Assembly (NCBI GenBank): GCA_017447875.1
Contig: JAFSMP010000030.1
Span: 1 to 54,077 of the forward strand
DNA: 54,077 bases
Direction of reading: 5' to 3'
From: Paludibacteraceae bacterium
Lineage (GTDB): Bacteria > Bacteroidota > Bacteroidia > Bacteroidales > Paludibacteraceae
The translations under genes and the position numbers were made by a program. Positions 1 through 13,645 of the stretch are shown in pieces. Position 1 is the first letter of the stretch, and every line of letters starts with the position of its first letter. The notes under the pieces were generated by a model that searched no databases, had not been told where the DNA came from, and saw nothing but the letters and a program-made list of their open reading frames with translations.

Positions 1-796
1 GGCAGGCGTTGGTCTGTGGCAAGACAGCCTCTCGCTGCTGAGCGACGCGGGACACAACTTAAGCGATGTATTCTCGTTGCTGTTAGTGCTGGTGGCTTTT
101 CGACTTGCGAAAGTGCACAGCAACGAACGCTACACCTACGGTTATCGCAAATCGACCGTACTGATCTCGCTACTCAATGCTGTCATTCTGCTCGTGGCAG
201 TTGGCGCTATCGTTATTGAGAGTATTCATAAGTTCAGCGAACCCGCCGAAGTGAACGGTATTGCTGTGTCGTGGACTGCCGGTGTCGGAATACTCATCAA
301 CGGTCTGACGGCTTTCCTGCTGATGCACGGACAGAAGAACGACCTCAACGTCCGCGGCGCGTTTCTGCACATGGTGGCCGACACGCTGGTCTCGGTGGGC
401 GTAGTCATCAGCGGAATCATCATCTATTATACCGGTTGGAATATGGTGGACCCTATCGTCAGCCTCATCATCGCCGCGGTTATTCTTATCTCCACATGGG
501 ACTTGCTATCCGATAGCTTGCGTCTTGCCGTGGACGGTATTCCCGAAGGCGTGGATAAGAAAGAGATAGAGCAAGAACTCTTGGAAAACGAACATGTGAG
601 CGAAGTTCACCACGTCCATATATGGGCTATCAGTACCACCGAAACAGCCCTCACAGCACATGTGGTTGTGGACAATTTGGCTAACTGGCCGCAAGTGTCA
701 CACCAACTCAAGCACGAACTATCTGAGCACGGCATTGCTCACGCCACTCTCGAACCCGAAACACCCTACACGCATTGTGCTGACCATGAGTGCTGA
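1..796 (+). CDS. Cation diffusion facilitator (zinc/cation exporter), 5' end outside the window
   Basis: Inner-membrane antiporter of the CDF family (CzcD/ZitB type) that exports zinc or similar divalent metal in exchange for protons. The frame is open from base 2, so the first membrane segment and the start lie before the window. Both intramembrane metal-site pairs are visible as HxxxD: HNLSD in the first visible helix and HMVAD about 105 residues later. Four or five hydrophobic segments follow in order. The cytoplasmic C-terminal domain has the usual HVHIWAIST strand, and the chain ends with a Cys/His-rich tail (CADHEC) that may bind metal. No neighbour in the window points to a specific metal, so substrate is inferred from the family. 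Confidence 0.93.
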   Translation, partial: AGVGLWQDSLSLLSDAGHNLSDVFSLLLVLVAFRLAKVHSNERYTYGYRKSTVLISLLNAVILLVAVGAIVIESIHKFSEPAEVNGIAVSWTAGVGILINGLTAFLLMHGQKNDLNVRGAFLHMVADTLVSVGVVISGIIIYYTGWNMVDPIVSLIIAAVILISTWDLLSDSLRLAVDGIPEGVDKKEIEQELLENEHVSEVHHVHIWAISTTETALTAHVVVDNLANWPQVSHQLKHELSEHGIAHATLEPETPYTHCADHEC

Positions 797-974
797 GTGT
801 GGAACCTTTGCCTAAACGCTCAATTTATCCTCACGCGCACGCGCGTACCTTATAGTATTTATATATCCTTCTTCGCTGTCGCTCGAAAAAAAAAGAGAGA
901 GACCTATTTCTTTTTGAGAGAGCCCCAAATGTTTTTTTATGTCCCATGAGTGAGCGGCGCCGTTATCCTCCCGG

Positions 975-1130
975 TGCATCAGAGGCGCGGGGCGGGCGGC
1001 GGTGTGCGCGCCTGCGGCGCGCGGGAGAGAGAGCGGAGCGGGCAGAGGCGGGAGACAGCGGAGCGGAGAGGGGCGAGGGCACAGGGCAGAGAGAGGGCAC
1101 AGGGCAGAGAGAGGGCGCAGAGAGAGAGAC
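975..1130. repeat. GC- and GA-rich low-complexity tract with 18-base tandem repeat
   Basis: A strongly purine- and GC-rich stretch unlike anything else nearby. It contains a perfect 18-base tandem duplication (acagggcagagagagggc at 1081-1098 and 1099-1116) followed by a partial third unit. Open frames run through it in several registers, but their translations are Arg/Glu/Gly-rich nonsense typical of such DNA, so no gene is called. It sits exactly where the 5' half of the adjoining 5S rRNA should be. The region 797-974 upstream of it holds nothing I recognise. Confidence 0.8.
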
Positions 1131-1180
1131 AGCATCGCCGATGGTACTGCACTGCGTTGTGGGAGAGTAGGTAGCCGCCA
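1131..1180 (+). pseudogene. 3' half of a 5S rRNA (truncated)
   Basis: The stretch carries the conserved 5S 3' half: CGCCGATGGTACTGC, then GGGAGAGTAGG and a terminal GCCGCCA. The 5' half is absent: neither the CCGAACNNNGAAGTTAAG loop nor a strand able to pair with the 3' end to form helix I is found upstream, where a GA-rich repeat tract lies instead. A terminator follows at the distance expected after an rRNA operon. It is therefore either a genomic remnant of an rrn operon or a mis-join in the assembly. Confidence 0.8.
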
Positions 1181-1186
1181 CTTTGA

Positions 1187-1223
1187 GAACCTCTGAGATT
1201 CGTCTCAGGGGTTCTTTTCTTTT
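1187..1223 (+). terminator. Intrinsic terminator of the 5S remnant
   Basis: A 12-base stem (GAACCTCTGAGA at 1187-1198 with TCTCAGGGGTTC at 1203-1214, one G-T wobble) closes a TTCG tetraloop and is followed by TTTTCTTTT. This is a classic rho-independent terminator placed just after the 5S end. Confidence 0.92.
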
Positions 1224-1246
1224 GCGTCTATACAATCAACTCTCCT

Positions 1247-1558
1247 TTATACAAGGATGTCTTGGTATTCGTCGGTGCGGGTGAGGAGGGCTTGGGCGTA
1301 GGAGCAGACAGGGATGATTTTACGGTTGTTGGCGCGCGCAAAATCCACTGCGGCAAGAACCATCTGCCGGGCAATGCCGCGTCCCTCAAAACCGTCAAAA
1401 ACGCGTGTATGGTCAATTATCACCCGTTGTGAAGTGGGGCGTTGGTGCGTCATTTCACCTACTTGCACCGGCTCGGCACATGCTCCTTCTTCCGTGGCTC
1501 TCATCCATGCCTCAAAAACGCCGCTTTTCTCGGTCTCTTGGTGTTGAATAGTTATCAT
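1247..1558 (-). CDS. Small GNAT-fold N-acetyltransferase (COG2388/YjdJ type)
   Basis: A 103-residue single-domain acetyltransferase-like protein. The acetyl-CoA loop is seen as FEGRGIARQM (residues 57-66), followed by the helix and the KIIPVCSYA strand (80-88) typical of the YjdJ subgroup. The substrate is unknown. The start at 1558 is chosen because its ATG overlaps the ogt stop by four bases (ATGA); the longer open frame upstream of it is the shadow of ogt. It is the last gene of a four-gene leftward operon otherwise devoted to DNA repair. Members of this subgroup are short, so the length is normal. Confidence 0.85.
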   Translation of the reverse strand: MITIQHQETEKSGVFEAWMRATEEGACAEPVQVGEMTHQRPTSQRVIIDHTRVFDGFEGRGIARQMVLAAVDFARANNRKIIPVCSYAQALLTRTDEYQDILV

Positions 1559-2034
1559 AGTTGCTCCAGTTCTAATAATCGTTTCTTTATCTCTATGCCG
1601 TATTCGTACCCGCCTATTTTGCCATGCGCGGCAATGACTCGGTGGCAGGGGATGATAAGAGCAATAGGATTGGCTCCCACGGCTTGTCCGACCGCTTGTG
1701 CGGAACGACAATCCACCATCTTGGCGATTTCTCCATACGTCTTGGTCTGACCAAACCAGATGGTAAACAAAGCCGTCCAAACGCGCTTCTGGAAAGCGGT
1801 GCCTTGCGGGCCGAGTCGCGGCACATTACATGGTCGTTTGCCCGCAAAATAATCATCTAACCATTGGATTGTTTCCGCGATAATAGGTATCGTAGTAGTT
1901 GTTTCTTTTGGGGCCTCTTTTGGGGCGGTTGAGGCTTTCTCGCTACTGAACCGCAGACTTGTTATCGCTTGGCCGTCACTTTCGATGACGATAGGTCCCA
2001 GAGGTGAGGTATATGTGGTAGTAAAGGTTTTCAT
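1555..2034 (-). CDS. ogt: Methylated-DNA--[protein]-cysteine S-methyltransferase
   Basis: Suicide repair enzyme that removes alkyl groups from O6-alkylguanine by transferring them to its own cysteine. The active-site motif IIPCHRVI is present with Cys130, preceded by the helix-turn-helix with the arginine finger (region 106-120) and followed by GGYEYG. Length (159 residues) is normal for Ogt. An in-frame low-complexity insert, APKEAPKE (residues 38-45), is coded by an 11-base direct repeat (1904-1914, 1916-1926) in the linker between the N- and C-terminal domains. It overlaps the upstream glycosylase gene and the downstream GNAT gene by four bases each, which indicates translational coupling. 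Confidence 0.95.
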   Translation of the reverse strand: MKTFTTTYTSPLGPIVIESDGQAITSLRFSSEKASTAPKEAPKETTTTIPIIAETIQWLDDYFAGKRPCNVPRLGPQGTAFQKRVWTALFTIWFGQTKTYGEIAKMVDCRSAQAVGQAVGANPIALIIPCHRVIAAHGKIGGYEYGIEIKKRLLELEQL

Positions 2035-2645
2035 AGCAGACCGATAGTTTCGAACATCCGCCGATAGGCAGCGGCTTTCATATCCAGCGATAGCGGGTAA
2101 GCGCGAGAGGAAGACGGCATTCGCCAGAAACGGATAGTCCTGCCGGCGAAGGCGGTTTCGATATATTCGCCTGGTTTGGGTGTAGCGGTATGTAGTAGCT
2201 TGGCTAATGTCTCTGCGGCTTTGCCGCCGGTGCAGCAGATGTCATGGCATTGCGGGATTTGTTGCAATAATGCGGCTATGTCTGTCTGCTCGACAATCTC
2301 CAGATGTTCATCAGCCGCGTTGCCTTGCAAGCGTCTAACGGCTTGCGCTGTGTCAAAGATAGCGATACCTTGCTCTCGGCAGAAAGAGACGATCTCTGTG
2401 TAATTAAAGATCGCTTTACGCCCCTTTGTACCTTGTACCTGATCACTTTGTACTTCAAAGTGCTGTTTGTCGCCGAAGAAGACATGTCCCATAATCCGCC
2501 ACATGTCGTTCTGCGGGTTAGGGTAGAAAAAATCCATACACCACCGTTCTTTGGGCGGCGGAAAACTGCCGAGCATCAGCACTCGTGCATTCTCCGGCAG
2601 AAACGGTTGCAGCGGGTGACGTTCTATTTCGATTGTAACAGGCAT
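2031..2645 (-). CDS. Uracil-DNA-glycosylase superfamily protein (hypoxanthine/uracil type)
   Basis: A 204-residue protein of the uracil-DNA glycosylase fold. The N-terminal motif LGSFPPPKERW (about residues 26-36) followed by FYPNPQNDMW matches the family-6-like glycosylases that excise deaminated bases and lack the classical GQDPY motif. The partner loop near residue 150 (CCTGGKA) is in the usual place. A short-repeat-coded insert (DNA 2424-2460, around VQSDQVQGTKG) interrupts the region after FFGDKQHF. It starts 2 bases after the stop of the upstream gene and overlaps ogt by four, so the two repair enzymes are made together. Base specificity cannot be fixed from sequence. Confidence 0.82.
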   Translation of the reverse strand: MPVTIEIERHPLQPFLPENARVLMLGSFPPPKERWCMDFFYPNPQNDMWRIMGHVFFGDKQHFEVQSDQVQGTKGRKAIFNYTEIVSFCREQGIAIFDTAQAVRRLQGNAADEHLEIVEQTDIAALLQQIPQCHDICCTGGKAAETLAKLLHTATPKPGEYIETAFAGRTIRFWRMPSSSRAYPLSLDMKAAAYRRMFETIGLL

Positions 2646-2647
2646 TT

Positions 2648-3298
2648 CTATTTTTCCAATTTCAGTTGTGCGTATATGTCAAGACCTTTTGCTGTGAGGC
2701 GGTAGGCTTGTTCCGGTTTATTAGGCGTATTAGGGTAGGCGTGGTCAATGAGGCTACGTTCCCATGCTGGGCGGAGATAGTTGTTGATAAAGGTGTGGCG
2801 GCTCTGTTGACGCATACCCAAGTCAGCAATGATCTGGCGGCGGGGTAAAACCTGTTTCCCTAAAACTAGAACCAATTTATATACGCGCGCCTCTTCCTTG
2901 TCTTTGGGAATAAGACGCGGTTGTGGTAGAGAGCATGTTTTTTCTGTTCCAGACTGCGGTTGGTTTTCAGATTGTTCGTGTGCCGCTTGTGATTCTTCTT
3001 CGATAGCTTCGATATAGAAACTAAATGGCCGGAAGCCATCGTTACAGCTGATCATGGCGCTCATGGGATTCTTCATCCAACCATCAAAGAAGTTACCTTT
3101 TCCATGTGCCAGAGATTCTACAAACGGTTTCATGGTATCCCATGCAGAAGGACATAATCCATCCGGGCAATTGACGTTGACGGATATCCATTGTTGTCCT
3201 TGTTGGATGTCGCAGGCATGCTCGATGGGATTCTCGTACTGTGCAATCAGGTCGTTATATATTGTCTGACGGATGGCTGTGATGCGAACTTTGAGCAT
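2648..3298 (-). CDS. TIGR04076-family protein fused to a winged-helix domain
   Basis: Two parts are visible. Residues 1-100 resemble the TIGR04076 family: an opening KVRITAIRQT strand, a CPSAW motif near 50, the GNFFDGWM turn and the SCNDGFRPFSF strand. After a Glu/Gln-rich linker (about 100-122), residues 125-216 form a probable winged helix like those at the C terminus of Fic and RecG-like regulators (LPRRQIIADLGM, then FINNYLRPAWE and a YRLTAKGLDIY wing). Function is unknown; the fusion suggests a sensor joined to a DNA-binding unit. It is the first gene of the repair operon and has its own promoter at 3327-3357. Confidence 0.7.
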   Translation of the reverse strand: MLKVRITAIRQTIYNDLIAQYENPIEHACDIQQGQQWISVNVNCPDGLCPSAWDTMKPFVESLAHGKGNFFDGWMKNPMSAMISCNDGFRPFSFYIEAIEEESQAAHEQSENQPQSGTEKTCSLPQPRLIPKDKEEARVYKLVLVLGKQVLPRRQIIADLGMRQQSRHTFINNYLRPAWERSLIDHAYPNTPNKPEQAYRLTAKGLDIYAQLKLEK

Positions 3299-3326
3299 AA
3301 TCTTTGTTGTTTATTGAAATCGACTG

Positions 3327-3357
3327 CAAAATTACAAAAAAATATTGATATAGACAA
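3327..3357 (-). promoter_or_regulatory. Promoter of the repair operon
   Basis: Read leftward, TTGT (3354-3357) is followed after 19 bases by TAATTTTG (3327-3334), the Bacteroidetes -33/-7 pair. It lies about 30 bases upstream of the first gene. Confidence 0.75.
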
Positions 3358-3360
3358 TAA

Positions 3361-3413
3361 CTTGTGTCTTTTTCTTGTTGGAGTAACCATAAATTGACAA
3401 AAAAAGACACAAG
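3361..3413. repeat. Hairpin repeat TTGTGTC, copy 1
   Basis: Arms CTTGTGTCTTTTT (3361-3373) and AAAAAGACACAAG (3401-3413) are a perfect 13-base inverted repeat around a 27-base spacer. The right arm continues into CTATA. The same arms recur at 3469-3520 and 4661-4710. This copy follows no gene directly. Confidence 0.85.
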
Positions 3414-3468
3414 CTATAGGGGACAAGTAGGATAAAAAGAGAGTGGATTAATCGGAGTAGAAATAGGG

Positions 3469-3520
3469 TTGTGTCTTTTTTGGGGGTTGGTGTTAGTGTT
3501 TTTATATAAAAAGACACAAG
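3469..3520 (-). terminator. Hairpin repeat TTGTGTC, copy 2, probable vsr terminator
   Basis: Arms TTGTGTCTTTTT (3469-3480) and AAAAAGACACAAG (3508-3520) flank a short spacer. On the leftward strand the vsr stop codon TAG runs straight into the first arm. The long T runs in both directions suit a bidirectional intrinsic terminator. Confidence 0.7.
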
Positions 3521-3958
3521 CTATTTAAGTATCTTCAATAAGTTTTGATTCAGGGTGACGGCGACTTGCTGCATGGTAGTTTCCAATTCCTGTTTGGTTA
3601 ATTTACATTGCCACAGAACGATTACTTGCCAACCGGCGTGCGTTAGTTCATCGTAGTTCCGTTGGTCGCGCTCGCGGTTACGGGCTATCTTGGTTTGCCA
3701 GAAGTCAGTATTTGTTTTAGGTAGGACAAACTGCTTGCAGCCTTCGTGGCCGTGCCAGAAACAACCGTTGACGAATATTGCCGTTCTGTATCTGCGCATC
3801 ACTATATCCGGCTTGCCCGGCACGCTCTTCACGTTCAGCCTGTACCGGTATCCGTGCGCCCAAAGCCATTTCCGGACCGTTATCTCCGGCTTCGTCGCCT
3901 TGCTGCGTATATGAGACATGCAGCGGTGGCGTTGTGCAGGTGTCAGAACATCGGGCAT
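3521..3958 (-). CDS. vsr: Very short patch repair (Vsr) endonuclease
   Basis: Mismatch endonuclease that nicks 5' of T in T:G mismatches left by deamination of 5-methylcytosine. The catalytic GKPDIV motif puts Asp at residue 51, the same position as in E. coli Vsr. The zinc/catalytic cluster C66-FW-H69-G-H71-xx-C74 and a late cysteine (C118) are present, and length (145) is normal. Vsr normally partners a cytosine-5 DNA methyltransferase, but none is encoded in this window, so it is an orphan here. The upstream region 3959-4050 contains two ~38-base repeats that could be operators. Its AT-rich composition matches the neighbouring defence island. Confidence 0.95.
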   Translation of the reverse strand: MPDVLTPAQRHRCMSHIRSKATKPEITVRKWLWAHGYRYRLNVKSVPGKPDIVMRRYRTAIFVNGCFWHGHEGCKQFVLPKTNTDFWQTKIARNRERDQRNYDELTHAGWQVIVLWQCKLTKQELETTMQQVAVTLNQNLLKILK

Positions 3959-3979
3959 AGACAGATTACTTTATATTTT

Positions 3980-4050
3980 TGGGACATGTCTCAAAACTTG
4001 TCTTAAAATATCGATCTTTTAGGACATTGTCTCAAAAGTGTCTTATAAAT
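3980..4050 (-). repeat. Two-copy direct repeat upstream of vsr
   Basis: Read leftward, AAGACA(A/C)..TTTTGAGACA.TGTCC occurs twice with a period of about 38 bases (copies near 4020-4047 and 3982-4009). Each includes the partial palindrome GACATGTC or GACAATGTC. Position between vsr and its presumed promoter suggests regulator-binding sites, but no regulator gene is identified. The rest of 3959-4174 holds no gene I can support. Confidence 0.5.
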
Positions 4051-4174
4051 CATTCTGCTTTAAATATATTGCTCCGCGTTTTTCAAAACTTCTAATACTA
4101 AACCGAAGGATTTATTATACATCTTCTAAAAAATCGGTTGATTTATCGCATATAGCATTATCAATTTTTAATTC

Positions 4175-4591
4175 TTAGTCATAATAGACTCCGATGTTAA
4201 GGAAGGCACGGAAATTGAACAGACCGAGTTGAGTTGTTTTGCTCCCGACATTGATGACGTGACCAAATTGTAACTTTAAGTCTTTCAGCCGTTTACCTTT
4301 ACATAAAATATATCCGTTCGCCGATAATTCATCTGCAAATTGTTCAATATAACGCTCTATTGTTCGTTCGTCCACTTCATAGAAGTCTGCTACCATCTTT
4401 TTGGTAAAGCGGTATTCGTCTTCGAACAACATGCCGGTAATGCCAAGGCTGTTTTGAATATTGGCAATGGCATACTTATTATTCAAAACGTTTTGCGTTC
4501 TATATTCGAAACTGTTAAATCGTTCATTATAATGTCTATTAATATTTCGGATTATTTCTTTTTGTCCATCAACTCGCTCCAGGTCATGAAA
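4175..4591 (-). pseudogene. Truncated DNA-binding protein gene of a Bacteroidetes family
   Basis: The translated core (FTKKMVADFYEVDERTIERY, then GYILCKGKRLKDLKLQFGHV and TTQLGLFNFRAFLNIG) resembles the N-terminal third of a Bacteroidetes DNA-binding protein family that, as I remember it, is about 300 residues long. Here the frame stops right after FLNIGVYYD at 4175. At the other end the homologous frame continues without an ATG from the TTG at 4486 back to a stop at 4592-4594 (FNSFEYRTQNVLNNKYAIAN is readable), so the natural start also appears lost. I therefore call it a broken gene rather than a 103-residue protein. The family identity is from memory. Confidence 0.55.
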
Positions 4592-4660
4592 TCAGGCTTG
4601 GTGGTTTGGGTGTTTTGGGGTGTTGCCGTTTAATCAGTTGTTTTGTTTTGAGGTGTAGGG

Positions 4661-4710
4661 TTGTGTCTTTTTTGTGAGTAGTGGGTTGTGTTTGGTAAAA
4701 AAAGACACAA
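4661..4710 (-). terminator. Hairpin repeat TTGTGTC, copy 3, probable terminator of the defence operon
   Basis: Arms TTGTGTCTTTTTT (4661-4673) and AAAAAAGACACAA (4698-4710) form a perfect 13-base inverted repeat. Read leftward it follows the DUF6485 stop codon immediately, with TAG merging into the repeat exactly as at vsr. It would end the long leftward transcript that begins near 13900. Confidence 0.7.
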
Positions 4711-4711
4711 G

Positions 4712-4858
4712 CTAAGATTGCCATTCAATCCCCCTCAAACAAGCTGGTAGTTTTTTTCCGTGTTTTTTGTGATGTGCAACGCACTCGCAGCACTTTCCGT
4801 GCCGCGGACAGCCTTCTTTCGTGCAAGGACAGTCGATATTGTTATGTGGACAAGACAT
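4712..4858 (-). CDS. DUF6485-like cysteine-rich small protein (48 residues)
   Basis: A 48-residue protein starting MSCPHNNIDCPCTKEGC and containing RHGKCCECVAHH followed by KLPACLRG near the end. Nine cysteines and four histidines in this spacing match the small DUF6485 family, thought to bind metal; no activity is known. The ATG at 4858 lies 3 bases after the mutT stop, so it is the last gene of the defence operon. The stop codon is part of hairpin repeat copy 3. It is too short for most gene finders, but the cysteine pattern makes it convincing. Confidence 0.8.
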   Translation of the reverse strand: MSCPHNNIDCPCTKEGCPRHGKCCECVAHHKKHGKKLPACLRGIEWQS

Positions 4859-4861
4859 AAG

Positions 4862-5245
4862 TTATTGCTTTAGTTCGTTTATTATCTCTTCATCTGCTGG
4901 CAACCACTTCACCGAATCCAACTCTTCGGTTTTGAGCCATTTAGCGGCTTCGTGTTCCAATAGCGTGACGTGACCTCCAGCAAGTTTGCACTTGAAACAA
5001 TGCATCGTCAGATGAAAGTTTGGATAGTCGTAATCAATCGTGCGCAATAGTTCGCCAACCTCTATCTCAGCATCTAACTCTTCGTGGATCTCGCGCTTTA
5101 AGGCTTGTTGGGGTGTTTCTCCGGCTTCCATCTTTCCTCCGGGGAACTCCCACCAATCCTTCCATTCACCATATCCTCGTTGTGTAGCAAATATTCGTTC
5201 TTGCTCGTCAAAGATGATGGCGGCAACTACTTCTATTGATTTCAT
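4862..5245 (-). CDS. mutT: MutT-type Nudix hydrolase (8-oxo-dGTP diphosphatase)
   Basis: A Nudix enzyme that hydrolyses oxidised dGTP before it enters DNA. The Nudix box is complete: GGKMEAGETPQQALKREIHE followed by EL, with the catalytic REIHEE glutamates. Length (127 residues) equals E. coli MutT, and WEFPGGK before the box and the late WLPADEEI segment (purine-binding region) also match. The start at 5245 is chosen since its ATG overlaps the upstream jetD stop by four bases. Its place between an SMC defence operon and a cysteine-rich protein is unusual; whether it serves defence or just shares the transcript is unknown. Confidence 0.92.
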   Translation of the reverse strand: MKSIEVVAAIIFDEQERIFATQRGYGEWKDWWEFPGGKMEAGETPQQALKREIHEELDAEIEVGELLRTIDYDYPNFHLTMHCFKCKLAGGHVTLLEHEAAKWLKTEELDSVKWLPADEEIINELKQ

Positions 5246-6087
5246 ATGATATAGCCCTCCTGATCGTAACACCTATGATAGTGGTTTATCATGTTATACA
5301 AAGGCAAAAGCCTTGTATCTTTTGGAATGTAGCTTTTGAACTTAGCATACTGGGTATTGTATCGTTCAGTACTGCCGTTAGATATTCTGGTTTCAATGTC
5401 GGCCGGAATGAAAAACGATGCTCGACTACCGAGGAACTTATGGAACTCGGTTTCAAAGATCCGCATTCCTGCCAAGTCAAAATCGCCAAAATGGAGATAG
5501 TCGTTGGAGATGTTTTGTAGCCAATTTCGTAAGTCAGTAGACTGCGGATAGCGTGACACAAAGAGAATTGGTCTATCTGTCGGGAATAAGTGTCGTTGTT
5601 CTCTAATACGACGGAAGTTCTCCATGTTTTCTATTCCTACTACCAGGACTTCTTTTGGAATCTCAAATTGATCCCAGTCTGCGACAAAAAGCATCGTGCC
5701 CTCTTGCGGAGCAATAACAATATCTTTGCCGTTTAATTTTGCATAAACAGGGTCATAACTATTTACCATGAACCCAGGGCAAGAACGAATCTCTTTTGTC
5801 TTGGAATTGCCAGAGTTTGCAGCTAATTCAGAACGTGAGATGGCAGTTGAAAAATCTTCACTTCTCCAATCCATACCTCTGAGTTCTTCAAAGTGGTGTT
5901 CAAGGAACATCTTTAAAGCCTCAGCATTAGGCACATATATCGATTTGCGGCTACGATTCGTTTTGATGATAATCAAGTCTTCACCAATCAATGTATTTCG
6001 CATATCAGTATTCAAGGAAGACCACGCTATAGTCTCACCTCTCAATAATCGTTGGAGTTGCTGTATTTGATTTTTAGATAGGCTCAT
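5242..6087 (-). CDS. jetD: Wadjet-like JetD subunit, compact TOPRIM nuclease
   Basis: The predicted DNA-cleaving subunit of a Wadjet-like (MksBEFG-like) anti-plasmid SMC complex. The TOPRIM signature is seen as VVGIENMEN with Glu153 and, 49 residues on, HFGDFDLAG with Asp202 and Asp204, the acidic triad that holds magnesium in topoisomerase VI-like nucleases. The protein is 281 residues, clearly shorter than JetD of well-studied Wadjet type I systems, so the N-terminal arm is reduced (about 120 residues before the TOPRIM core). It overlaps jetC by four bases upstream and mutT by four downstream. The family is assigned by motif and context. Confidence 0.8.
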   Translation of the reverse strand: MSLSKNQIQQLQRLLRGETIAWSSLNTDMRNTLIGEDLIIIKTNRSRKSIYVPNAEALKMFLEHHFEELRGMDWRSEDFSTAISRSELAANSGNSKTKEIRSCPGFMVNSYDPVYAKLNGKDIVIAPQEGTMLFVADWDQFEIPKEVLVVGIENMENFRRIREQRHLFPTDRPILFVSRYPQSTDLRNWLQNISNDYLHFGDFDLAGMRIFETEFHKFLGSRASFFIPADIETRISNGSTERYNTQYAKFKSYIPKDTRLLPLYNMINHYHRCYDQEGYII

Positions 6088-9000
6088 TCGTTACTCTCAT
6101 GCTTTAATAAACGATATATCTTAGTCATGGATTTTTGATCCTTTTCAAGCATATACGTGTATTTGTAATCATATGCGTTCATTGACTCTGGAGAAGAGTT
6201 GATGAGGAAGATATTACGTTTGGTTGCGAAATGCAGTATTCCTCTCACATTATTTGAGTGCAATTTTCCTATTTCATCCAACATACAGTGGATAATAAAC
6301 TCTTGATCCTTATTACGCGCCGCCTTCTTCTTGAATACATTGATAAGCATGATATTTATCATGGCCTTTACCAATATATCGGTACCATCGGAACCTACGT
6401 TGTTGATACGCTCTACCCAATTTGTATCTTGATCATTTTCTTTGATACGGAACTGAAGATTGAATGTGTCAGATAAGGTAAGTTGCTGTTTACTCGGGTC
6501 TTTCTGTAATAATTGCATAAACCGTCTGAGATAGTCTACAACCTTACGATTGATTTCATCGTTATTCCCATTAGAAAATAGATTCGCCGCACCAAGATTG
6601 AAATCATTTTCTTCTGTAAAGGTTTTTATCTTGTACAGCAAACGCATAATAGTATCATCTGAAGGTTCTGAACGAAGTTCAATGCTCTTAATTACCTCAG
6701 CAAATTTATTATCTTCATAGTCCCGGTTAATTTCTCGAATAACTTTATCTATCTCTGATTGGTGAGCCATCAGTTTACCCACTTCACGTGATACCGCTTG
6801 CAGTATGCTTTGATAGTGTTCACTAGTACGAGACCGATACTCCTCTATTTTGTTCTTCTCGATAAACTCAGACAAACTAATTGCGATATCCGTAAAGTGT
6901 CTTTCCTCATAAGGATTGATATTGAAGTGGAAGATATTATCAGGGGTAAAATTGTTATTAAACAAGCGGACTCTTGATTTCAGTTCTTTCAGTTTCTCTT
7001 CCTTGTCAGTAATGGAACCTCTTAATTCGGCGAGAACCTGTTGGCAAGTTTTTGTAGTTTGAACAGATTTCTCATCTTGGAGATACATTTCTGATAAAAG
7101 ATGTGCCACTTCTATCTCTTGACGATATTGTTCCAAACCATCCTGCCATGTTTTAATTTTAGCATCTTGTTTATTCCATTTATCTTGCAATTCAGAGAGA
7201 CGCACGTTAATACGTCGTGTTTTCTCTTCATATTGACCACGGAGATTTTGGATTTTCTCCTCGATGGCTGCTTTCTCTTGTTTAAGAGTATCCTCTTTGT
7301 CGAAGAGTTCTTCCTTGTCCTTTAGATATCCGATTACCAAATTGCGTTGGTCTTCAATTTTCTTTAATTGGCCATCGATATCACGAATATGTTCTTCTTG
7401 TTTCTTAATAGCGGCAGTATCCGCACCCTCACCTTTCAGTTCGGCATCGCGATCCTCTTCATATTTACGTTTTTGTTGAGCATAGTGCGCTTCCTCTGCT
7501 TTTAACTCTTCTTTTTGCGTTGTTTGTAACTCATCCAAAGGTTTCCGTAGTTCTCTCGCTTTGCTCTCAAAAGTAGCATTTATTTGATTTTTTGCTTTTT
7601 CCCATAATGCTCTCTTAGCACTAAGTTCGTTTTTGGCTTGCGAGTGTTTTAGTATAACCTCATTGAGTTCGGTTTGCTTTTCCTCTATTTTAGCTTCTCG
7701 TTCTTCCTTCTCTTTACGTTCGAGAGTTGCCAGATCCGTTTTCTTATTCCTTCGTAACTGAGGTATTTGTTCCAAACGAACGCGGAAATATGCCGCTTCT
7801 TGTTGAAGTGGTTTTATCTTATCGGATAATTGATCGCTAATCTTAGCAATATTCTCTTCTTTTGCTAATAGTAGATCACTTAATTGCTTCTTAATTGCTT
7901 CAATTTGGCTATCTAATTCTTTCGCACGTTTTCTATAATCATCAGGAGAACGATGGGTTGATTCTACTTGAGATAAATCCAGTTGGACGCCGAACAAGGT
8001 GCTATTATCCTTGCTCGCTAATACAGGTGACAGACCTTGAGCGTACAATACGCGCTCTTCATCTACCACTTTCCCTATTGTTTCTTCCCAAGGCAATTCG
8101 CTTTGAGCAAGCCACTCATAGAAAGAGCCTTTATATCGCGATAGAAGAGAGTTTATATTATTTAGTTCGTCCTGTAATTGTTGCTGTTTAGTACGTAATT
8201 GCTCATCTTGAATTTTATGCTCAGTTTCTATTTTATTTACTTCGCTCTGAGCTTCTGTCCGTAATCGTGCTATTTCTTGTTCCTTAGCAATTATTGTTGC
8301 GCCTGCTTCTTTTTCTTCAATATCCAACTGGTGCAATTCTGCTTGAACAGCCTCCTTTTCTTTAGCATATGGCTGCCAAGTCCGTAACTCTTGAATTTTA
8401 AGTTCTATATTCTTTTGGTCTGTTTGAAGGCCTTCTATTCGTTGTTCTATCTCTTCGCGACTTGCATTATACTGACCTTCCGCAGCCTCCAATTGCGCTC
8501 TACGCTCTTTCTCAAACACTTCACGCTGCTTCTGCATTTCGTTGCGCACATAGTTAAGTCTCTCGTTTTGCCGATTCTTGAAGTCTTGGAAGTTATTGTC
8601 TAACGTACCGAATAACAATTTATATTTAGCCTCAATACTATCAAACTGCTTTGTTAAGGCCTCAAGAATTGCTTGTTGCTGTGCACGTTCACTCTGTAAT
8701 TTAGGCATAGACTCATGTAGACGCAACATTTCTTCGATTCCTATTTGTGCATAGTTCTTCCGCTTGTCACGAATCTCTTTGAGTTTATTGTTCTTGACGC
8801 CTAAATTCTGATCGAGAGTACTCTTGTCTTTTTGGAAGTTAGTTTCAACTTCTTTTCTTCTATTCTTCTCATCTAGAATAAGTTTTTCCGTTTCCTTGAT
8901 CTCTTCTTGGGCTACAGGTAGTTGCTCACGTGCTTGTTGAACGGCATAGTTTAACTCATGGATAGAGCGACGTATTTGCTGCTCATATGCCAGCATTGCT

Positions 9001-9764
9001 CTATAAGAACTAATGACTTGTTGTGCTTGTCGTTGCACAATTATATCTCCGTTCTTCTCCTTCTTAAACCAGAGTTCGATGTCATCGTACAGACGTTCAA
9101 AACGAGCTAACTGATCACGATATACGCTCAATTTGATAGCTTCTTCAGTCTCGCTTTCAGACATAGACTCTATGATAGTTTTCTTAACAAATTCAGCATC
9201 TAATTTGCTATTAAGGAAAACGTTTTGAATACTACGAGGTATGTTTTGATATCGTGAACTTTCAACAATAGCATACTTGGCAAACTTATTACCTCTCTCA
9301 TGGTAATTACCGAAGATTATATCACGGTAGTTCATACAACCAAAGAGAGGACTAATATCAATCGTTGCATCCTTTGTGATATTTTGACGAATCTTTGTCC
9401 ATTCACTCAAAGCTTCACCTGATTCATTGATAATCCAATCTCTGTTATACGGGGCGTCTATAAAACGGAACATCGTTGTTCCTTGACTACGTGCAACGAG
9501 AATCGTATATGGACCTATCTCACGCTGAACTTCATACAAGATATATGAATTGGCATGCTCAAAATAGAATTGATCAAATGATAGTTGACCTTGCTTGATA
9601 CCAAGGTGCGTTTTGTCAGCATTATAGAAGAATAGCAATGCACGCAGAAGTGTACTTTTACCTGTTCCTTGCGTACCGGTAAAATGCACATTACCATCCA
9701 ACATTATCTCCGCATAGCGTATATGAGCGCTATTGATAAATATAATTTTATTCAGGTATCTCAT
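6084..9764 (-). CDS. jetC: Wadjet-like JetC subunit, SMC ATPase
   Basis: A 1,226-residue SMC/MukB-like ATPase, the motor that extrudes DNA loops in Wadjet. The Walker A loop GTQGTGKST is at residues 30-38, right after a short first strand. Residues from about 250 to 960 are Glu/Lys/Gln-rich coiled coil, interrupted by a hinge-like segment around 550-600 (FYEWLAQSELPWEE, GLSPVLASKDNS). The signature loop (NNVGSDGTD) and Walker B (IIHCMLDEIGKLH, about residue 1160) close the head. It overlaps jetB by 17 bases and jetD by 4. Codon use is AT-rich compared with the efflux and ATPase operons to the right. Confidence 0.87.
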   Translation of the reverse strand: MRYLNKIIFINSAHIRYAEIMLDGNVHFTGTQGTGKSTLLRALLFFYNADKTHLGIKQGQLSFDQFYFEHANSYILYEVQREIGPYTILVARSQGTTMFRFIDAPYNRDWIINESGEALSEWTKIRQNITKDATIDISPLFGCMNYRDIIFGNYHERGNKFAKYAIVESSRYQNIPRSIQNVFLNSKLDAEFVKKTIIESMSESETEEAIKLSVYRDQLARFERLYDDIELWFKKEKNGDIIVQRQAQQVISSYRAMLAYEQQIRRSIHELNYAVQQAREQLPVAQEEIKETEKLILDEKNRRKEVETNFQKDKSTLDQNLGVKNNKLKEIRDKRKNYAQIGIEEMLRLHESMPKLQSERAQQQAILEALTKQFDSIEAKYKLLFGTLDNNFQDFKNRQNERLNYVRNEMQKQREVFEKERRAQLEAAEGQYNASREEIEQRIEGLQTDQKNIELKIQELRTWQPYAKEKEAVQAELHQLDIEEKEAGATIIAKEQEIARLRTEAQSEVNKIETEHKIQDEQLRTKQQQLQDELNNINSLLSRYKGSFYEWLAQSELPWEETIGKVVDEERVLYAQGLSPVLASKDNSTLFGVQLDLSQVESTHRSPDDYRKRAKELDSQIEAIKKQLSDLLLAKEENIAKISDQLSDKIKPLQQEAAYFRVRLEQIPQLRRNKKTDLATLERKEKEEREAKIEEKQTELNEVILKHSQAKNELSAKRALWEKAKNQINATFESKARELRKPLDELQTTQKEELKAEEAHYAQQKRKYEEDRDAELKGEGADTAAIKKQEEHIRDIDGQLKKIEDQRNLVIGYLKDKEELFDKEDTLKQEKAAIEEKIQNLRGQYEEKTRRINVRLSELQDKWNKQDAKIKTWQDGLEQYRQEIEVAHLLSEMYLQDEKSVQTTKTCQQVLAELRGSITDKEEKLKELKSRVRLFNNNFTPDNIFHFNINPYEERHFTDIAISLSEFIEKNKIEEYRSRTSEHYQSILQAVSREVGKLMAHQSEIDKVIREINRDYEDNKFAEVIKSIELRSEPSDDTIMRLLYKIKTFTEENDFNLGAANLFSNGNNDEINRKVVDYLRRFMQLLQKDPSKQQLTLSDTFNLQFRIKENDQDTNWVERINNVGSDGTDILVKAMINIMLINVFKKKAARNKDQEFIIHCMLDEIGKLHSNNVRGILHFATKRNIFLINSSPESMNAYDYKYTYMLEKDQKSMTKIYRLLKHESNE

Positions 9765-10299
9765 CTTCGTTGTGGATTGTTAGTAAGTTCACCAAATCTT
9801 CTGCATAACGATATGCCGAAGTTACTTTATACGTTGCTGTTTCTTCTTCTATTTGTTCAGCAAATCCCATTGTTTCCATTTCACTAATTAACTTCTCTAC
9901 CTTCTCCGGGAATGTTTTCTGCTGAGAGAATAAACGACGAGCCTTATCCTTTAGATCCGCATTAACATCTATCTCGTTTTCTATTTGCGCTTTGCTAAAT
10001 TGGTAGCCAACAGAAAACGTAGAGTCGAATGTCTTGAAGAAATCCAAATAATCAATCCATTTGCAGAAATTCTCCAAACGTCTTTCGATATCCACTTTAC
10101 TATCATTGATAGTGGAGAAATAGTAATAACCATTTCCACTTTCAAGACGAAAACCTATCTGCTGAAAGAACTCTGAGTATTCTTCAAAGTTATCTTCAAC
10201 ATCTTTAAACAGACGTTTGATATCTGCTTTAGTACTATCTGCTGCGAGGAATCCACCTCGTATCAGACGTTCATAAATGGCTTGTGTATTACTTAGCAT
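9748..10299 (-). CDS. jetB: Wadjet-like JetB subunit (MukE/MksE-like)
   Basis: A 183-residue, highly charged helical protein in the position of JetB, the small winged-helix dimer that clamps the kleisin and SMC heads. It begins MLSNTQAIYERLIRGGF and has the typical late Ala-Tyr-rich segment (TSAYRYAEDLVNLL). It overlaps jetA by 11 bases and jetC by 17. Sequence alone is weakly diagnostic; the assignment rests on length, helix-rich composition and the invariant order A-B-C-D. Confidence 0.77.
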   Translation of the reverse strand: MLSNTQAIYERLIRGGFLAADSTKADIKRLFKDVEDNFEEYSEFFQQIGFRLESGNGYYYFSTINDSKVDIERRLENFCKWIDYLDFFKTFDSTFSVGYQFSKAQIENEIDVNADLKDKARRLFSQQKTFPEKVEKLISEMETMGFAEQIEEETATYKVTSAYRYAEDLVNLLTIHNEDEIPE

Positions 10300-11488
10300 A
10301 AATTAAAGGATATTCAAGGTTTTCGTATGTTACATATTTGTCTGTGATTCGACATTCGTTAGGATGCTGAACAGCTAATTGGCAGAATAGCACAGCGTGT
10401 TGCTCTATAGTGCGTTCTTGCTTATAGTCGTACGACAATATAAATGAGAATAAATCGTTGCTACCTGCACGGAATGCTCTCCACACTTCTTGTTGATTAA
10501 CCTCATTCAATGGTGAAACATTTTCCCTTAGCTCGTCCTCTGTTAATGGAAGGGCAGAAGTCCGAGATTTGCGAATAATGCCTTCCTTTTCCGCTACTCT
10601 ACGCATAAGAGCCGACATCTCTTCGCTACTTTGTAACATTTCAAGAGACACACGCATCCTATTGTACTGTCTGTTTTCCATCCAAACAGGGTTCATTCTC
10701 GATACAACAGGAATGATATCGGTACTCTCTTTAATGGTCAGCTGATCCCGCAGATATTTAAGCTTACGAATCTTTTTAATGAGCAGATTTTGTTGCTCTA
10801 TTAAGTGGATGTATTCTATTATCTGGGTTTCAATTGATAGCAAATTATAGTAGGCATCAGTGAAGTCATTACGTACATCTGCAATGGTGCTTGCCATTTG
10901 TGGATTAGACGTAAATGAGAAAAAGGCTTTATCTTCTTCCATTAGCCTCTCACAGGCTTCCATTAGCGCACGAATACTTTTCCGTTTCTCATCCAAGTTT
11001 CTTAGTTTCTGAATTTTAATATCATAGTTCGGCTCTTGTTTGTAAGCAGTATCTACATTGCGTTTTAAGTCAATCACGTTACGAATTGTACGTACTCCAA
11101 TATCACGCAGTTTCCTTTGAACGATTGAAAGATAATGGTATTTGCGTTTATCAGTTGTTTCTTTCTGATAATAAACTATATTCTCTTTAAGGGAGTCTAT
11201 GCACTCTTTTACACTTGCAATATTAATTTCCTCATTAACATCCAAAACATCCTCAAAGAAGCGGAGATATACTTCTTCTAACTCTAAAAAATTTCCACTT
11301 TCGTGAATAACTCCATAGTTAATCAGGTACTGAATACGATCTCGTTTATATTCGACTAATTCCATCGCAAGCTCCGTAGTAAAAGAATGTGTTTTGCGAT
11401 CACCGAAAGCAGTGCGCAACATATCCTTCTCCTTGTTAATACATCTAACAAGTTCATCAATATTTCGGAAATGCGATTGATTTTCCAT
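10289..11488 (-). CDS. jetA: Wadjet-like JetA subunit (kleisin, MukF/MksF-like)
   Basis: A 399-residue mostly helical protein placed first of the four SMC-complex genes, as JetA is. An N-terminal winged-helix-like region (about 1-100, including VEYKRDRIQYLINYGVI) precedes long helices (100-270), and the C-terminal region (315-399) contains the SPLNEVNQQEVWRAF segment and a short terminal domain. It would bridge the SMC heads. It begins 36 bases after the upstream helicase gene with no promoter visible in the gap, so the two are probably cotranscribed. Direct homology to MukF is distant. Confidence 0.75.
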   Translation of the reverse strand: MENQSHFRNIDELVRCINKEKDMLRTAFGDRKTHSFTTELAMELVEYKRDRIQYLINYGVIHESGNFLELEEVYLRFFEDVLDVNEEINIASVKECIDSLKENIVYYQKETTDKRKYHYLSIVQRKLRDIGVRTIRNVIDLKRNVDTAYKQEPNYDIKIQKLRNLDEKRKSIRALMEACERLMEEDKAFFSFTSNPQMASTIADVRNDFTDAYYNLLSIETQIIEYIHLIEQQNLLIKKIRKLKYLRDQLTIKESTDIIPVVSRMNPVWMENRQYNRMRVSLEMLQSSEEMSALMRRVAEKEGIIRKSRTSALPLTEDELRENVSPLNEVNQQEVWRAFRAGSNDLFSFILSYDYKQERTIEQHAVLFCQLAVQHPNECRITDKYVTYENLEYPLIYAK

Positions 11489-11524
11489 GACAATTTTATA
11501 TTAAGCAGCTTTCAAGAATTGTGG

Positions 11525-13645
11525 TTAAATTTCCTTCAACCCCAGACTTTTAAGGTATTTGTACGTTCCGTTATAGAACTCTGGCAGACGAGTTGCGTCT
11601 TCAGGGAAACCTTCTGGAGTAATGCGGTCATTGCCGGCAGGGACACAGATAACGATGCCTTGACGAGCACGAGTTAGCAGCACACGATAGGCATTGAGCA
11701 TATATTTCTGGTTCTCTGCGTTGTTCTCCGGAATCCATTTGTTTTTGCCGTTGAACTTATGGTACGTCCATGTATTTCCGTCACATCGCATATCAGCATC
11801 CCATAGGACACAAGCATAGTCTAACTCCAATCCTTGTACTTGTATTTCCGTTGCGGCATCTTCAAGATAGTTAGACGATCGAACGTCTGTCTTGTCTTCG
11901 AGGAACCAGTGTACGGCATTTTCGTCACCTTGCGCAAGGATGTTTACTGCAAGCGGTTTGAAACGCGCGGCAACTTTCGTTACCAACACACCTGTCTGTT
12001 GCGTCCCACGTGCTTGTTTTCTAAGCCATGCACGAGCCTTGTCCATATCACGTGTTAACACGATAGGATACCTGTCTTTGATGTCGTTATACAGCGAAGA
12101 AGCGTCCGGCTGGAAAGATAACAACGAATGAATAAAAGCGGACATCGTCTCAGCTCGGAAGGAACGTTGACTAACGGCGAGGTGTAGCTGGTCAGAGAAA
12201 GTCACTCGGTCATTATTTTGTAACAACTCATTTACGCGTCCTTCTGCATATTCCGGTTCGGTCAGTTTATCGGAGATATAGATATTCCAGTATGGGAAAC
12301 GATTGTTGAGCGCCTTAATCCATTCGGAGATACCTGCTTCGCCGGTGTTAATCTCCTGACCACCACCAACCAAACATACAATCACCGCCCAATCTTCTCG
12401 CTGATCAAGTGACCAAATTAGGAACTCAGCCTCCGACATAGGGAAGTTAGGCACTTTCAGTTTGTTGCCGTACGTACCACCTCGTTTAAGATAATCAGCG
12501 ATACGCTTATGCGTCCAACTGCGTTGTGCCTCATCGAAGATAGCCACATGCTCCACCTCTCCATAGCCGGTTGCCTCTTGTTTGACAGCTTTTTCGGGAT
12601 CAATTTCCACGATACCATTCTCTACAGGATTCTTAATTTTTGCGAGCATGTTATCGCGGTAGCGGTGGATGATTTGGATAAATTCACTCACCTCACGGCG
12701 TGAGTCAGATAGATTCTTCTTCTCCCCTCTTTCTGCACACTTCTTAAGATTATCCCTTGCAAGCGCTTCGGTGAGTACAGCTACTAAAGGACCATTGCCG
12801 GAAAGATAAACTGCTCCGTTTTCTTTGTCTAACTCGCCGTCTTTGTAAGTTTGCTTAATCGCCACATCCAAACCGACAAGTGTCTTACCTGCTCCTGGAA
12901 CACCGGTTATAAAACAGATACTTTTGGCATTTTGCTTTTTGCTCTGCTGAATAACTCGCAAGATATAATTGGTAGTGGCGTCTGTGAATACTTTTTCTGC
13001 TTCGTGTTTGGTGATATCTTCTACCGAGTGGTTTTCGTATAGGGAACGTGCTGCTTCTATGATGGTGGGCGTCGGAGTGTATGGGCTGATTATCCAATTG
13101 TCGTTATTTGCAGAAGGTGTGGTTACACCTGCGTGTTCTAATACTCCGCTTATGAGATTTTGGAGATTATCCGCTCCGGATATTAACGGATTGTATATAC
13201 TATCGTCATAAACCGAAGGCTGAAATTCGGTTGTTACAGTGGTATAACTGGTGGGTACAAGAATCGGAACGATAGTTCTGTCGTGGCTATATAAGTGAAA
13301 GTTTTTCAGGTCTAAAGCATAGTCCATTACTTGCTCCACATCAGCCTGCAACGCGGATGATTGCCCAACTTTGAACTCTAAACAGAAGATAATACCACGC
13401 AGTAAAAGAACTACATCTATGCGTTTTCCCAAACGAGGAATGTCATACTCAAAGATGATTTGTGAAGGCTCTTCTTTCCATGGAAGAAGGACTTGCTGCA
13501 ATAGAGTTATCTCGCCAATCCAAGCATCGTCCGTAGTAGTCAAGGCTTCACCATGATAGTTCAAGTGTAACGTACCTAAAATCTCTTTAGGAGCTGTGTC
13601 TATGAACTGACGAAATGTGGTATTATATAAGCAACGATTACTCAT
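11525..13645 (-). CDS. PD-(D/E)XK nuclease fused to a DUF2075-type SF1 helicase
   Basis: A 706-residue two-part protein. Residues about 40-130 carry a PD-(D/E)XK-like core: GKRIDVVLLL with Asp77, then IFCLEFKVGQ with Glu90 and Lys92. From about 240 a superfamily 1 helicase of the DUF2075 (Schlafen-related) type follows: Walker A GVPGAGKTL (248-256), Walker B VAIFDEAQRSW (about 368), a VGGGQEI motif and the late EIQGLE-like segment (TEIQVQGLELDYACVLWD) with VLLTRARQG near the end. Such proteins occur in defence islands but are not a standard Wadjet part. It shares the promoter and strand of the jet genes. Confidence 0.85.
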   Translation of the reverse strand: MSNRCLYNTTFRQFIDTAPKEILGTLHLNYHGEALTTTDDAWIGEITLLQQVLLPWKEEPSQIIFEYDIPRLGKRIDVVLLLRGIIFCLEFKVGQSSALQADVEQVMDYALDLKNFHLYSHDRTIVPILVPTSYTTVTTEFQPSVYDDSIYNPLISGADNLQNLISGVLEHAGVTTPSANNDNWIISPYTPTPTIIEAARSLYENHSVEDITKHEAEKVFTDATTNYILRVIQQSKKQNAKSICFITGVPGAGKTLVGLDVAIKQTYKDGELDKENGAVYLSGNGPLVAVLTEALARDNLKKCAERGEKKNLSDSRREVSEFIQIIHRYRDNMLAKIKNPVENGIVEIDPEKAVKQEATGYGEVEHVAIFDEAQRSWTHKRIADYLKRGGTYGNKLKVPNFPMSEAEFLIWSLDQREDWAVIVCLVGGGQEINTGEAGISEWIKALNNRFPYWNIYISDKLTEPEYAEGRVNELLQNNDRVTFSDQLHLAVSQRSFRAETMSAFIHSLLSFQPDASSLYNDIKDRYPIVLTRDMDKARAWLRKQARGTQQTGVLVTKVAARFKPLAVNILAQGDENAVHWFLEDKTDVRSSNYLEDAATEIQVQGLELDYACVLWDADMRCDGNTWTYHKFNGKNKWIPENNAENQKYMLNAYRVLLTRARQGIVICVPAGNDRITPEGFPEDATRLPEFYNGTYKYLKSLGLKEI

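Follow-up and report, generated by a model that had tools for sequence, protein, structure and literature searches.

What does the four-gene operon on a 54,077-nucleotide stretch of Paludibacteraceae DNA (contig JAFSMP010000030.1, here called the window) encode, and does it belong to a described type of Wadjet system? In a review (PMC10586767) and in PMC12647877, Wadjet is described as a dimeric loop extruder of three types that cuts DNA once extrusion is complete; linear DNA is spared, as are plasmids larger than about 100 kb. In the window, four intact open reading frames run on the minus strand from position 11488 to 5242 in the order jetA-jetB-jetC-jetD, with overlaps of 11 bp (A/B), 17 bp (B/C) and 4 bp (C/D). 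The translations confirm the gene set, order and overlaps that a sequence-only reading of this DNA had proposed, and the operon is real, intact and Wadjet-like. We consider it likely that it encodes a four-subunit Wadjet-like system, a loop-extruding nuclease acting against extrachromosomal circular DNA, from a compact lineage that lies outside the PADLOC models for types I-III.

Composition and conservation of the operon

The features of the operon are collected in Table 1. The Pfam matches of JetB and JetC (MksE and DUF3584), a near-threshold match of JetD to DUF7281 (E 4.7e-6; 26.7 bits, 0.3 bits short of the cut-off of 27) and the recurrence of the whole set in relatives indicate that the arrangement is not due to chance. 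The MukE-like assignment of JetB thus stands. JetD also has a sub-cut-off match to JetD_C (E 0.01), and JetA has no Pfam match near cut-off and no PADLOC or NCBIfam match. The P-loop and the JetD acidic residues are located where the sequence-only reading had placed them. The Walker A residues G30, Q32, G33, G35 and K36 are invariant in 20/20 JetC sequences, as are G1124, S1125, G1127, T1128, D1129, D1163 and E1164, which we take to form a signature-like GSDGTD motif at 1124-1129 and the Walker B pair (D1163-E1164).

Table 1. Coordinates of the operon genes and conserved motifs in the window (residue counts such as 61/61 refer to aligned members of the branch; the C-B-A-D group is described in the text)
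Feature	Position	Strand	Description
jetA-like gene	10289..11488	-	399 residues; putative kleisin; winged helix - helices - winged helix in a low-confidence model
jetB-like gene	9748..10299	-	183 residues; MksE/KITE subunit; Pfam MksE PF21980, E 3.9e-39
jetC-like gene	6084..9764	-	1,226 residues; DUF3584 SMC/MukB-like ATPase with coiled coils; Pfam PF12128, E 1.2e-68
JetC Walker A GTQGTGKST, residues 30-38	9651..9677	-	counted on the translation
JetC Walker B acidic pair D1163-E1164 in CMLDEIGKLH	6273..6278	-	invariant, 20/20
jetD-like gene	5242..6087	-	281 residues; predicted winged helix + TOPRIM nuclease
JetD E153	5629..5631	-	61/61; aligned with the type I TOPRIM glutamate
JetD D202-x-D204	5476..5484	-	61/61; kept also in 13 JetD of the C-B-A-D group
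JetD Q276-E277	5257..5262	-	aligned with the LEQE motif of type I JetD; Q 61/61, E 60/61

The subunits had been described as compact, which is true of two of them. Among the PADLOC models listed, JetA1 models have 480-557 positions and JetD1-3 models 345-472, apart from one of 234, so that JetA and JetD are short by comparison; JetB falls just below the range of the JetB1 models (189-321), and JetC exceeds that of the JetC1 models (1,093-1,215) and is not compact.

PADLOC models give weak, partial matches to JetB1, JetC1 and JetD1 on the window proteins, and NCBIfam gives none for JetA and JetD and matches for JetB and JetC only far below cut-off. In L055, a type I locus of the same phylum that served as a control, every subunit is recognized by the PADLOC models, and the Pfam matches are DUF3375, DUF4194/MksE, an ATPase of the SMC (structural maintenance of chromosomes) type and JetD_C/DUF3322; neither DUF3375 nor DUF3322 is found in the window JetA or JetD at E up to 1. 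Across the branch, one JetD1 model matches 37 of the 61 JetD sequences (best E 1.4e-6) and a second matches 15 (best 2.8e-7), and one JetC1 model matches 14 of 20 JetC sequences (best 1.9e-7). PADLOC JetA models, of whatever type, recognize 0/55 branch JetA sequences. PADLOC requires all of JetABCD for a canonical Wadjet call (PMC9252829). With JetA unrecognized, this branch would therefore probably escape that call, judging from the models.

Predicted structures of JetD and JetA

The AlphaFold model of JetD, built from nine sequences (predicted local distance difference test score, pLDDT, 84.8), consists of a winged helix followed by strands and a TOPRIM domain, with the domains read from the secondary structure. 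When this model was compared with 350,542 PDB chains using Foldseek, the best match was the Spo11 core (E 2e-4, the sole match below 1e-3), followed by Top6A of M. mazei and Top6A 2zbk. The TOPRIM fold that had been proposed for JetD is thus borne out by prediction. The winged helix lacks a conserved tyrosine: within residues 1-147 the sole tyrosine column filled in at least 30 of 61 members is Y111 (49/61), which falls outside the predicted winged helix. JetD cleavage should therefore be hydrolytic and metal-dependent. JetD is predicted to be a minimal Spo11/Top6A-like nuclease with one winged helix and a TOPRIM domain; the longer N terminus seen in type I JetD is missing.

For JetA, which had been called kleisin-like, the outcome is mixed. 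The five best PDB matches of its model are chains from MukF, MukEF and MukBEF entries (9gm7, 1t98, 3rpu and 7nz2) and E. coli JetA (8q72_E), a specific ranking that speaks for the proposal; the scores are weak (E 0.0019-0.008, TM 0.22-0.27 on the query) and the model they come from is poor. On the predicted structure, JetA is probably a kleisin.

Extent of the branch and transfer of the operon as a cassette

One pattern scan of contigs from one genome per species yielded 390 JetD relatives that were confirmed by tblastn, and the following results come from the best 80 of these 390. Bacteroidota are named in 77 of the 80 titles. The 64 loci that show jetA all have the A-B-C-D order on one strand, three of them with a jetC split in two. 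In the remaining 16, which start no more than 227 bp from the edge of the contig stretch that was fetched, only upstream genes are missing. Complete jetA-to-jetD sets number 62, including the window, with a median span of 6,249 bp.

Homology between related loci frequently ends at the operon boundaries. This was analyzed in 47 sequences flanked on each side by 1 kb or more, among which 172 pairs (not independent of one another) align across the entire operon. Homology stops no more than 100 bp from the jetA start and, at the other end, from the jetD stop in 54 of 63 pairs at 75-85% identity, compared with 5/10 pairs at 85-95%, 1/5 at 95% or above, and 29/94 below 75%. The window and L063 (RUG456) are 97.0% identical across window positions 5249-11489, with no other match above 200 bp and no flank homology found. 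A further case joins two families: Bacteroides muris (Bacteroidaceae) and Parabacteroides distasonis (Tannerellaceae) share the operon and its flanks at 97.8% identity over 10.6 kb. By these alignments, the operon is inherited and transferred as one unit, a cassette.

Within the cassette, jetD can differ from its companions. Nucleotide identity between the window and L063 is 96.7% for A, 99.8% for B, 99.4% for C and 85.1% for D, with dN/dS at or below 0.144 in all four; along the alignment it stays near 100% from position 10500 to 5900 and then drops through jetD to 55% at its end. JetD is often, though not always, the more diverged of JetC and JetD: in a chosen set of 16 close pairs, to which window-L063 comes in addition, its identity falls 5 or more points below that of JetC in 6 pairs and exceeds it by 5 or more in 2. 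The jetD gene is far more diverged than jetC in window-L063, L064-L066 and L105-L080, and two other pairs show the opposite. The excess divergence suggests either exchange or fast evolution of the nuclease.

Operons of changed gene order on plasmids and in a phage

The window JetC matches nine plasmid records and one phage. When the corresponding gene of a Vibrio breoganii plasmid was used as the query, it matched 36 plasmid records, a few of which are the same Bacteroidota records; MOB-suite classes 17 of the 36 as conjugative, 5 as mobilizable and 14 as non-mobilizable. At least 80% of the query is covered at one place in 11 records, and just 16% in several enterobacterial records. Eleven plasmid regions and cyanophage Dfl-JY45 carry an SMC gene followed by genes for 205-224, 399-421 and 266-301 residues, the order C-B-A-D. 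The plasmid sets are annotated as an 'ATP-binding protein' and three hypothetical proteins, and the phage set as hypothetical throughout; in V. campbellii the set is present with split annotation, one Pseudomonas record is unannotated, and the Citrobacter region is only a fragment. The V. breoganii and cyanophage sets have Pfam matches to DUF3584, MksE and DUF7281. When profiles of this group, built from 12-13 members, were compared with those of the Bacteroidota branch by hhalign, the scores were 85% over 346 columns for A, 98% for B, 100% for C and 99.2% for D. The two sets are therefore homologous in all four subunits, with the gene order changed. E145-N146, D197, D199 and Q263 are invariant in the 13 JetD sequences of the C-B-A-D group.

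These results bear on the suggestion that the operon represents an uncommon branch in Bacteroidales. With 390 JetD relatives in one scan and homologous systems on Pseudomonadota plasmids and in a cyanophage, that suggestion is not supported. The idea of a divergent Wadjet branch did hold up, given that no JetA is recognized by PADLOC and that the JetA profile comparison with type I fails.

Among the matches listed, 27 of 30 plasmid records exceed 100 kb; large plasmids carry more genes, so this count is no test. The records of 100 kb or less among these matches are a 40-kb Acinetobacter record and two Phocaeicola records of 65-76 kb. The 'plasmid' label of the P. distasonis record is doubtful because ribosomal and housekeeping genes are found on it. 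In IMG/VR, no relative was confirmed for JetD (0/178 pattern matches) or for the cyanophage SMC (0/2), and a search with the SMC alignment confirmed 1/98, a JetC at a contig end with no JetD detected.

Weighing the relationship to Wadjet

Profile comparisons link two subunits directly to type I Wadjet. Against Bacteroidota type I alignments of 5-7 members per subunit, the branch profiles score 91% for JetB (E 1e-6) and 95% for JetC (E 5e-8, over the N-terminal part). The JetD profile scored 66% (E 5.6e-5) with an alignment that included two C-B-A-D members. JetD of the C-B-A-D group scores 94.3% against type I JetD, and Bacteroidota JetD scores 99.2% against C-B-A-D JetD (E 1.7e-19, 264 columns; 99.8% before two shared members were removed). 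In 12 cross-subunit controls (A, B and D), scores did not exceed 1.5%, with E of 0.034 or worse. In the JetD alignment, E153, D202/D204 and Q276-E277 fall opposite the E, DxD and QE of type I, and by motif position we infer that E153 is the counterpart of MksG E236, using the residues of Weiss et al. The alignment starts at branch column 118 versus type I column 216, indicating that ∼100 N-terminal residues are missing from the branch JetD.

Several results weigh against a simple assignment to Wadjet. The JetA profile scores only 3.3% against type I JetA, which amounts to no link, and the JetA structural model, built from five sequences, has a pLDDT of 60.7. When the two C-B-A-D members are removed, the direct comparison of JetD with type I falls to 17.3% (E 0.0014), at the same TOPRIM stretch; set against the scores obtained through the C-B-A-D group, this makes the JetD link to type I mainly transitive. 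Sequence searches of the PDB with the branch profiles found no related chain (E limits of 5 for A, 1 for B and D, and 0.001 for C), and even with E allowed up to 10, the profiles of JetD (61 members) and JetA (55 members) recovered none of the JetD or JetA chains of known structure. The negative result for A and D is informative because type I profiles do find solved chains, three JetD and four JetA sequences at E values of 5e-25 to 9e-37. The only PDB sequence match of the C-B-A-D JetD profile, at E up to 10, is Top6A 2zbk (E 0.059). There are also A-B-C operons without JetD, in P. distasonis (L143), on Persicobacter pPP3 (L144) and in two genomes of the order, G121 (L172) and G258 (L173); no JetD was found across the 117 kb of the P. 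distasonis record or within the ∼20 kb examined of pPP3. The existence of such operons suggests that JetABC can do something without the nuclease. Finally, the target may be plasmids, phages or both.

The JetD-less operons would be expected if the complex were a chromosomal condensin of the MksBEF kind and its TOPRIM protein an accessory decatenase or repair factor, not a defense effector. The same explanation could account for the apparent lack of a conventional Smc-ScpAB: TIGR02168 scores over cut-off in 0/21 genomes of the window's family compared with 10/14 controls, and ScpA has no match in the 76.7%-complete genome from which the window comes, although the ScpA model is silent in a Bacteroides control too and the SMC and ScpA models may be too strict for the phylum. 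A housekeeping condensin fits poorly, however, with a DUF3584 gene in just 19/295 genomes of the order (a lower bound), with cassette exchange and transfer across families, with carriage on plasmids and in a phage, and with a nuclease gene that overlaps jetC by 4 bp and whose TOPRIM residues are invariant. We therefore regard this explanation as very improbable. The operon might instead belong, unnoticed so far, to Wadjet type II or III and not form a separate lineage, since the JetC3 model PDLC00582 matches 3 of 20 JetC (best E 5e-5), PDLC00581 matches 1 (1.4e-5), a JetC2 model matches 1 (4e-4), and JetD3 models match at most 3 of 61 JetD (best 4e-4). The 'DUF3584' note in PADLOC does not discriminate here, as it is attached to JetC1, JetC2 and JetC3 models alike. 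No strong match to the type II or III models was found among the 55 JetA, 61 JetD and 20 JetC sequences or the window JetB, the JetC and JetD matches being weak only; more members match the type I models, all of them weakly, no JetA model of any type matches, and the JetD2 and JetD3 models listed are longer (345-472 positions). Searches of 247 phylum genomes each with JetD2 and JetD3 gave one partial match (G420, the type I locus L055) and none, respectively. Judged through the PADLOC models, membership in type II or III is unlikely.

The remaining alternative accepts a Wadjet-like machine but has a phage or some other mobile element, not plasmids, as its natural target; Lamassu, for comparison, acts on both phages and plasmids. 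Homologous operons in a cyanophage and on plasmids would fit such a conflict between mobile elements, and some neighbors in related loci match candidate anti-phage families; on the other side, matches of the SMC to LmuB are weak (two models, 1/20 members each), and JetD has no Lamassu effector match in the PADLOC scans. We consider such a target decidedly unlikely. Our preferred reading remains a Wadjet-like system acting on circular DNA. Whether the branch constitutes a fourth Wadjet lineage is, in our estimate, an evenly balanced matter: this lineage would combine a DUF3584 SMC with a minimal DUF7281 nuclease, travel as A-B-C-D cassettes in Bacteroidota and as C-B-A-D sets on large plasmids and in a cyanophage, and have lost its nuclease more than once to leave a condensin-like JetABC.

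Proposed mechanism and implications

By analogy with the Wadjet literature, JetABC would form a dimeric motor that extrudes DNA loops. On a small circular DNA the motors would exhaust the available DNA, meet and stall, and the stalled complex would activate a JetD dimer to make a double-strand cut, destroying the invading circle; linear and very large DNA would escape. Plasmid cutting by this system is what we infer from that analogy. If the branch is a fourth lineage as outlined above, its C-B-A-D operons on large, often conjugative Pseudomonadota plasmids and in the cyanophage would be a weapon between mobile elements.

If plasmids are indeed restricted, a sizeable and so far unlabeled set of gut and rumen Bacteroidota would have a plasmid barrier, which bears on genetic access to these bacteria and on gene flow in the gut, and the same machine would be present on large plasmids of Pseudomonadota, both environmental and host-associated, where it is presumably directed at smaller competitors. 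With the minimal JetD, it could be tested simply which JetD parts are needed for control by the SMC motor, and the JetD-less relatives provide a natural comparison of an SMC motor with and without its nuclease. The branch is not described in the accessible portions of the Wadjet, MksBEFG, JetABCD and DUF3584 literature that we found (including PMC10586767, PMC10123090, PMC12287153, PMC12647877 and PMC9252829), and subscription papers may describe it; no literature was found under the name DUF7281.

Distribution, other arrangements and neighboring genes

DUF3584 occurs in at least 19 of 295 sampled genomes of the order, with two candidates scored per genome, a patchy distribution that speaks for the Wadjet-like reading. 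JetD lies beside the SMC gene or on the same contig in 16 of the 19 (one of them, G035, of the rarer form described below) and is missing from G121 and G258; in the remaining genome the contig stops after jetC. DUF7281 alone finds 10/295 genomes and misses several JetD carriers. Trees were built from 84 JetC and from a reduced set of 22 JetC, with long branches and quick support values; the reduced tree, which omits L171 (its contig ends just after jetC), requires three label changes for the four JetD-less rows, a tentative number of JetD losses.

The rarer arrangement is C-D-A-B, seen at L049 (7602-2346), at L052 (12954-7779) and in part at L176. It has an SMC of 887-909 residues and a TOPRIM protein of 263-269 residues, followed by proteins of ∼400 and ∼175 residues; JetC, JetD and, in L052, JetA weakly match this branch, and the last gene of L052 is an MksE match. 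L050 and L051, from the same phylum, carry another compact set of 437-456, 215-224, 1,056-1,080 and 305-317 residues. For proteins 1, 3 and 4 of L050, PADLOC gives no match with E of 0.01 or better; the SMC of L050 has a MukB N-terminal Pfam match.

The source genome of the window (2.25 Mb in 70 contigs, 76.7% complete) has a single DUF3584 gene and a single JetD of this branch, and a contig of a Paludibacteraceae metagenome-assembled genome from goat abomasum (L062) is 100% identical to window positions 514-5983. A Schlafen-group-3 helicase gene (11525-13645, minus strand; PADLOC candidate PDC-S41, E 2e-244) lies upstream of jetA in the same orientation, and its end is 36 bp from jetA; in 3/80 relatives (L093, L106 and L140) a homolog is found no more than 150 bp from the operon, on its upstream or its downstream side. 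A Vsr endonuclease gene is present at 3521-3958 (minus strand). The short open reading frame at 4175-4486 (minus strand) is apparently a remnant, as its match to the candidate model PDC-M59A is confined to positions 15-114 of 338.

No universal partner gene was found among the 80 loci, the largest neighbor cluster being present in 13. Five of ten scanned neighbor or insert proteins strongly match PADLOC candidate or known defense families, a proportion that counts for the Wadjet-like reading but is given without a background rate. An extra gene stands between jetB and jetC in 3/80 loci (L070 4786-6330, L073 4786-6330 and L121 4704-6338); the L070 insert is a Schlafen AlbA_2/RecG-C-like protein by scan, and those of L073 and L121 were assigned by clustering. 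At L175, a DUF1016/YhcG nuclease gene (PDC-S02; 4597-5637) occupies the same position.

Comparison with known systems

One close known system is type I Wadjet (JetABCD/MksBEFG of E. coli GF4-3, P. aeruginosa PA14 and C. glutamicum), with which the operon shares four overlapping genes in the order A-B-C-D, detectably homologous KITE and SMC subunits, and a TOPRIM subunit connected via the C-B-A-D group, with the E, DxD and QE positions aligned. It differs from type I in a JetA with no detectable link to DUF3375 JetA and in the shorter N terminus of its JetD. The resemblance to types II and III consists of weak PADLOC model matches in a few JetC and JetD members, whereas its JetD of 281 residues is smaller than the JetD2 and JetD3 models (345-472), a comparison made through the PADLOC models only.

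MukBEF and MksBEF resemble the branch in their KITE subunit (Pfam MksE), in being the source of the MukF-type chains nearest to the JetA model, and in the existence of JetD-less versions; unlike them, the branch has a TOPRIM subunit accompanying the SMC in 16 of the 19 DUF3584 genomes of the order. Topoisomerase VI-A and Spo11 provide the best Foldseek matches of the branch JetD, which differs from them in having no conserved winged-helix tyrosine at the place of the 5Y-CAP catalytic residue. The partners differ as well: topoisomerase VI-A and Spo11 work with a GHKL ATPase, whereas the partner of the branch JetD is an SMC complex.

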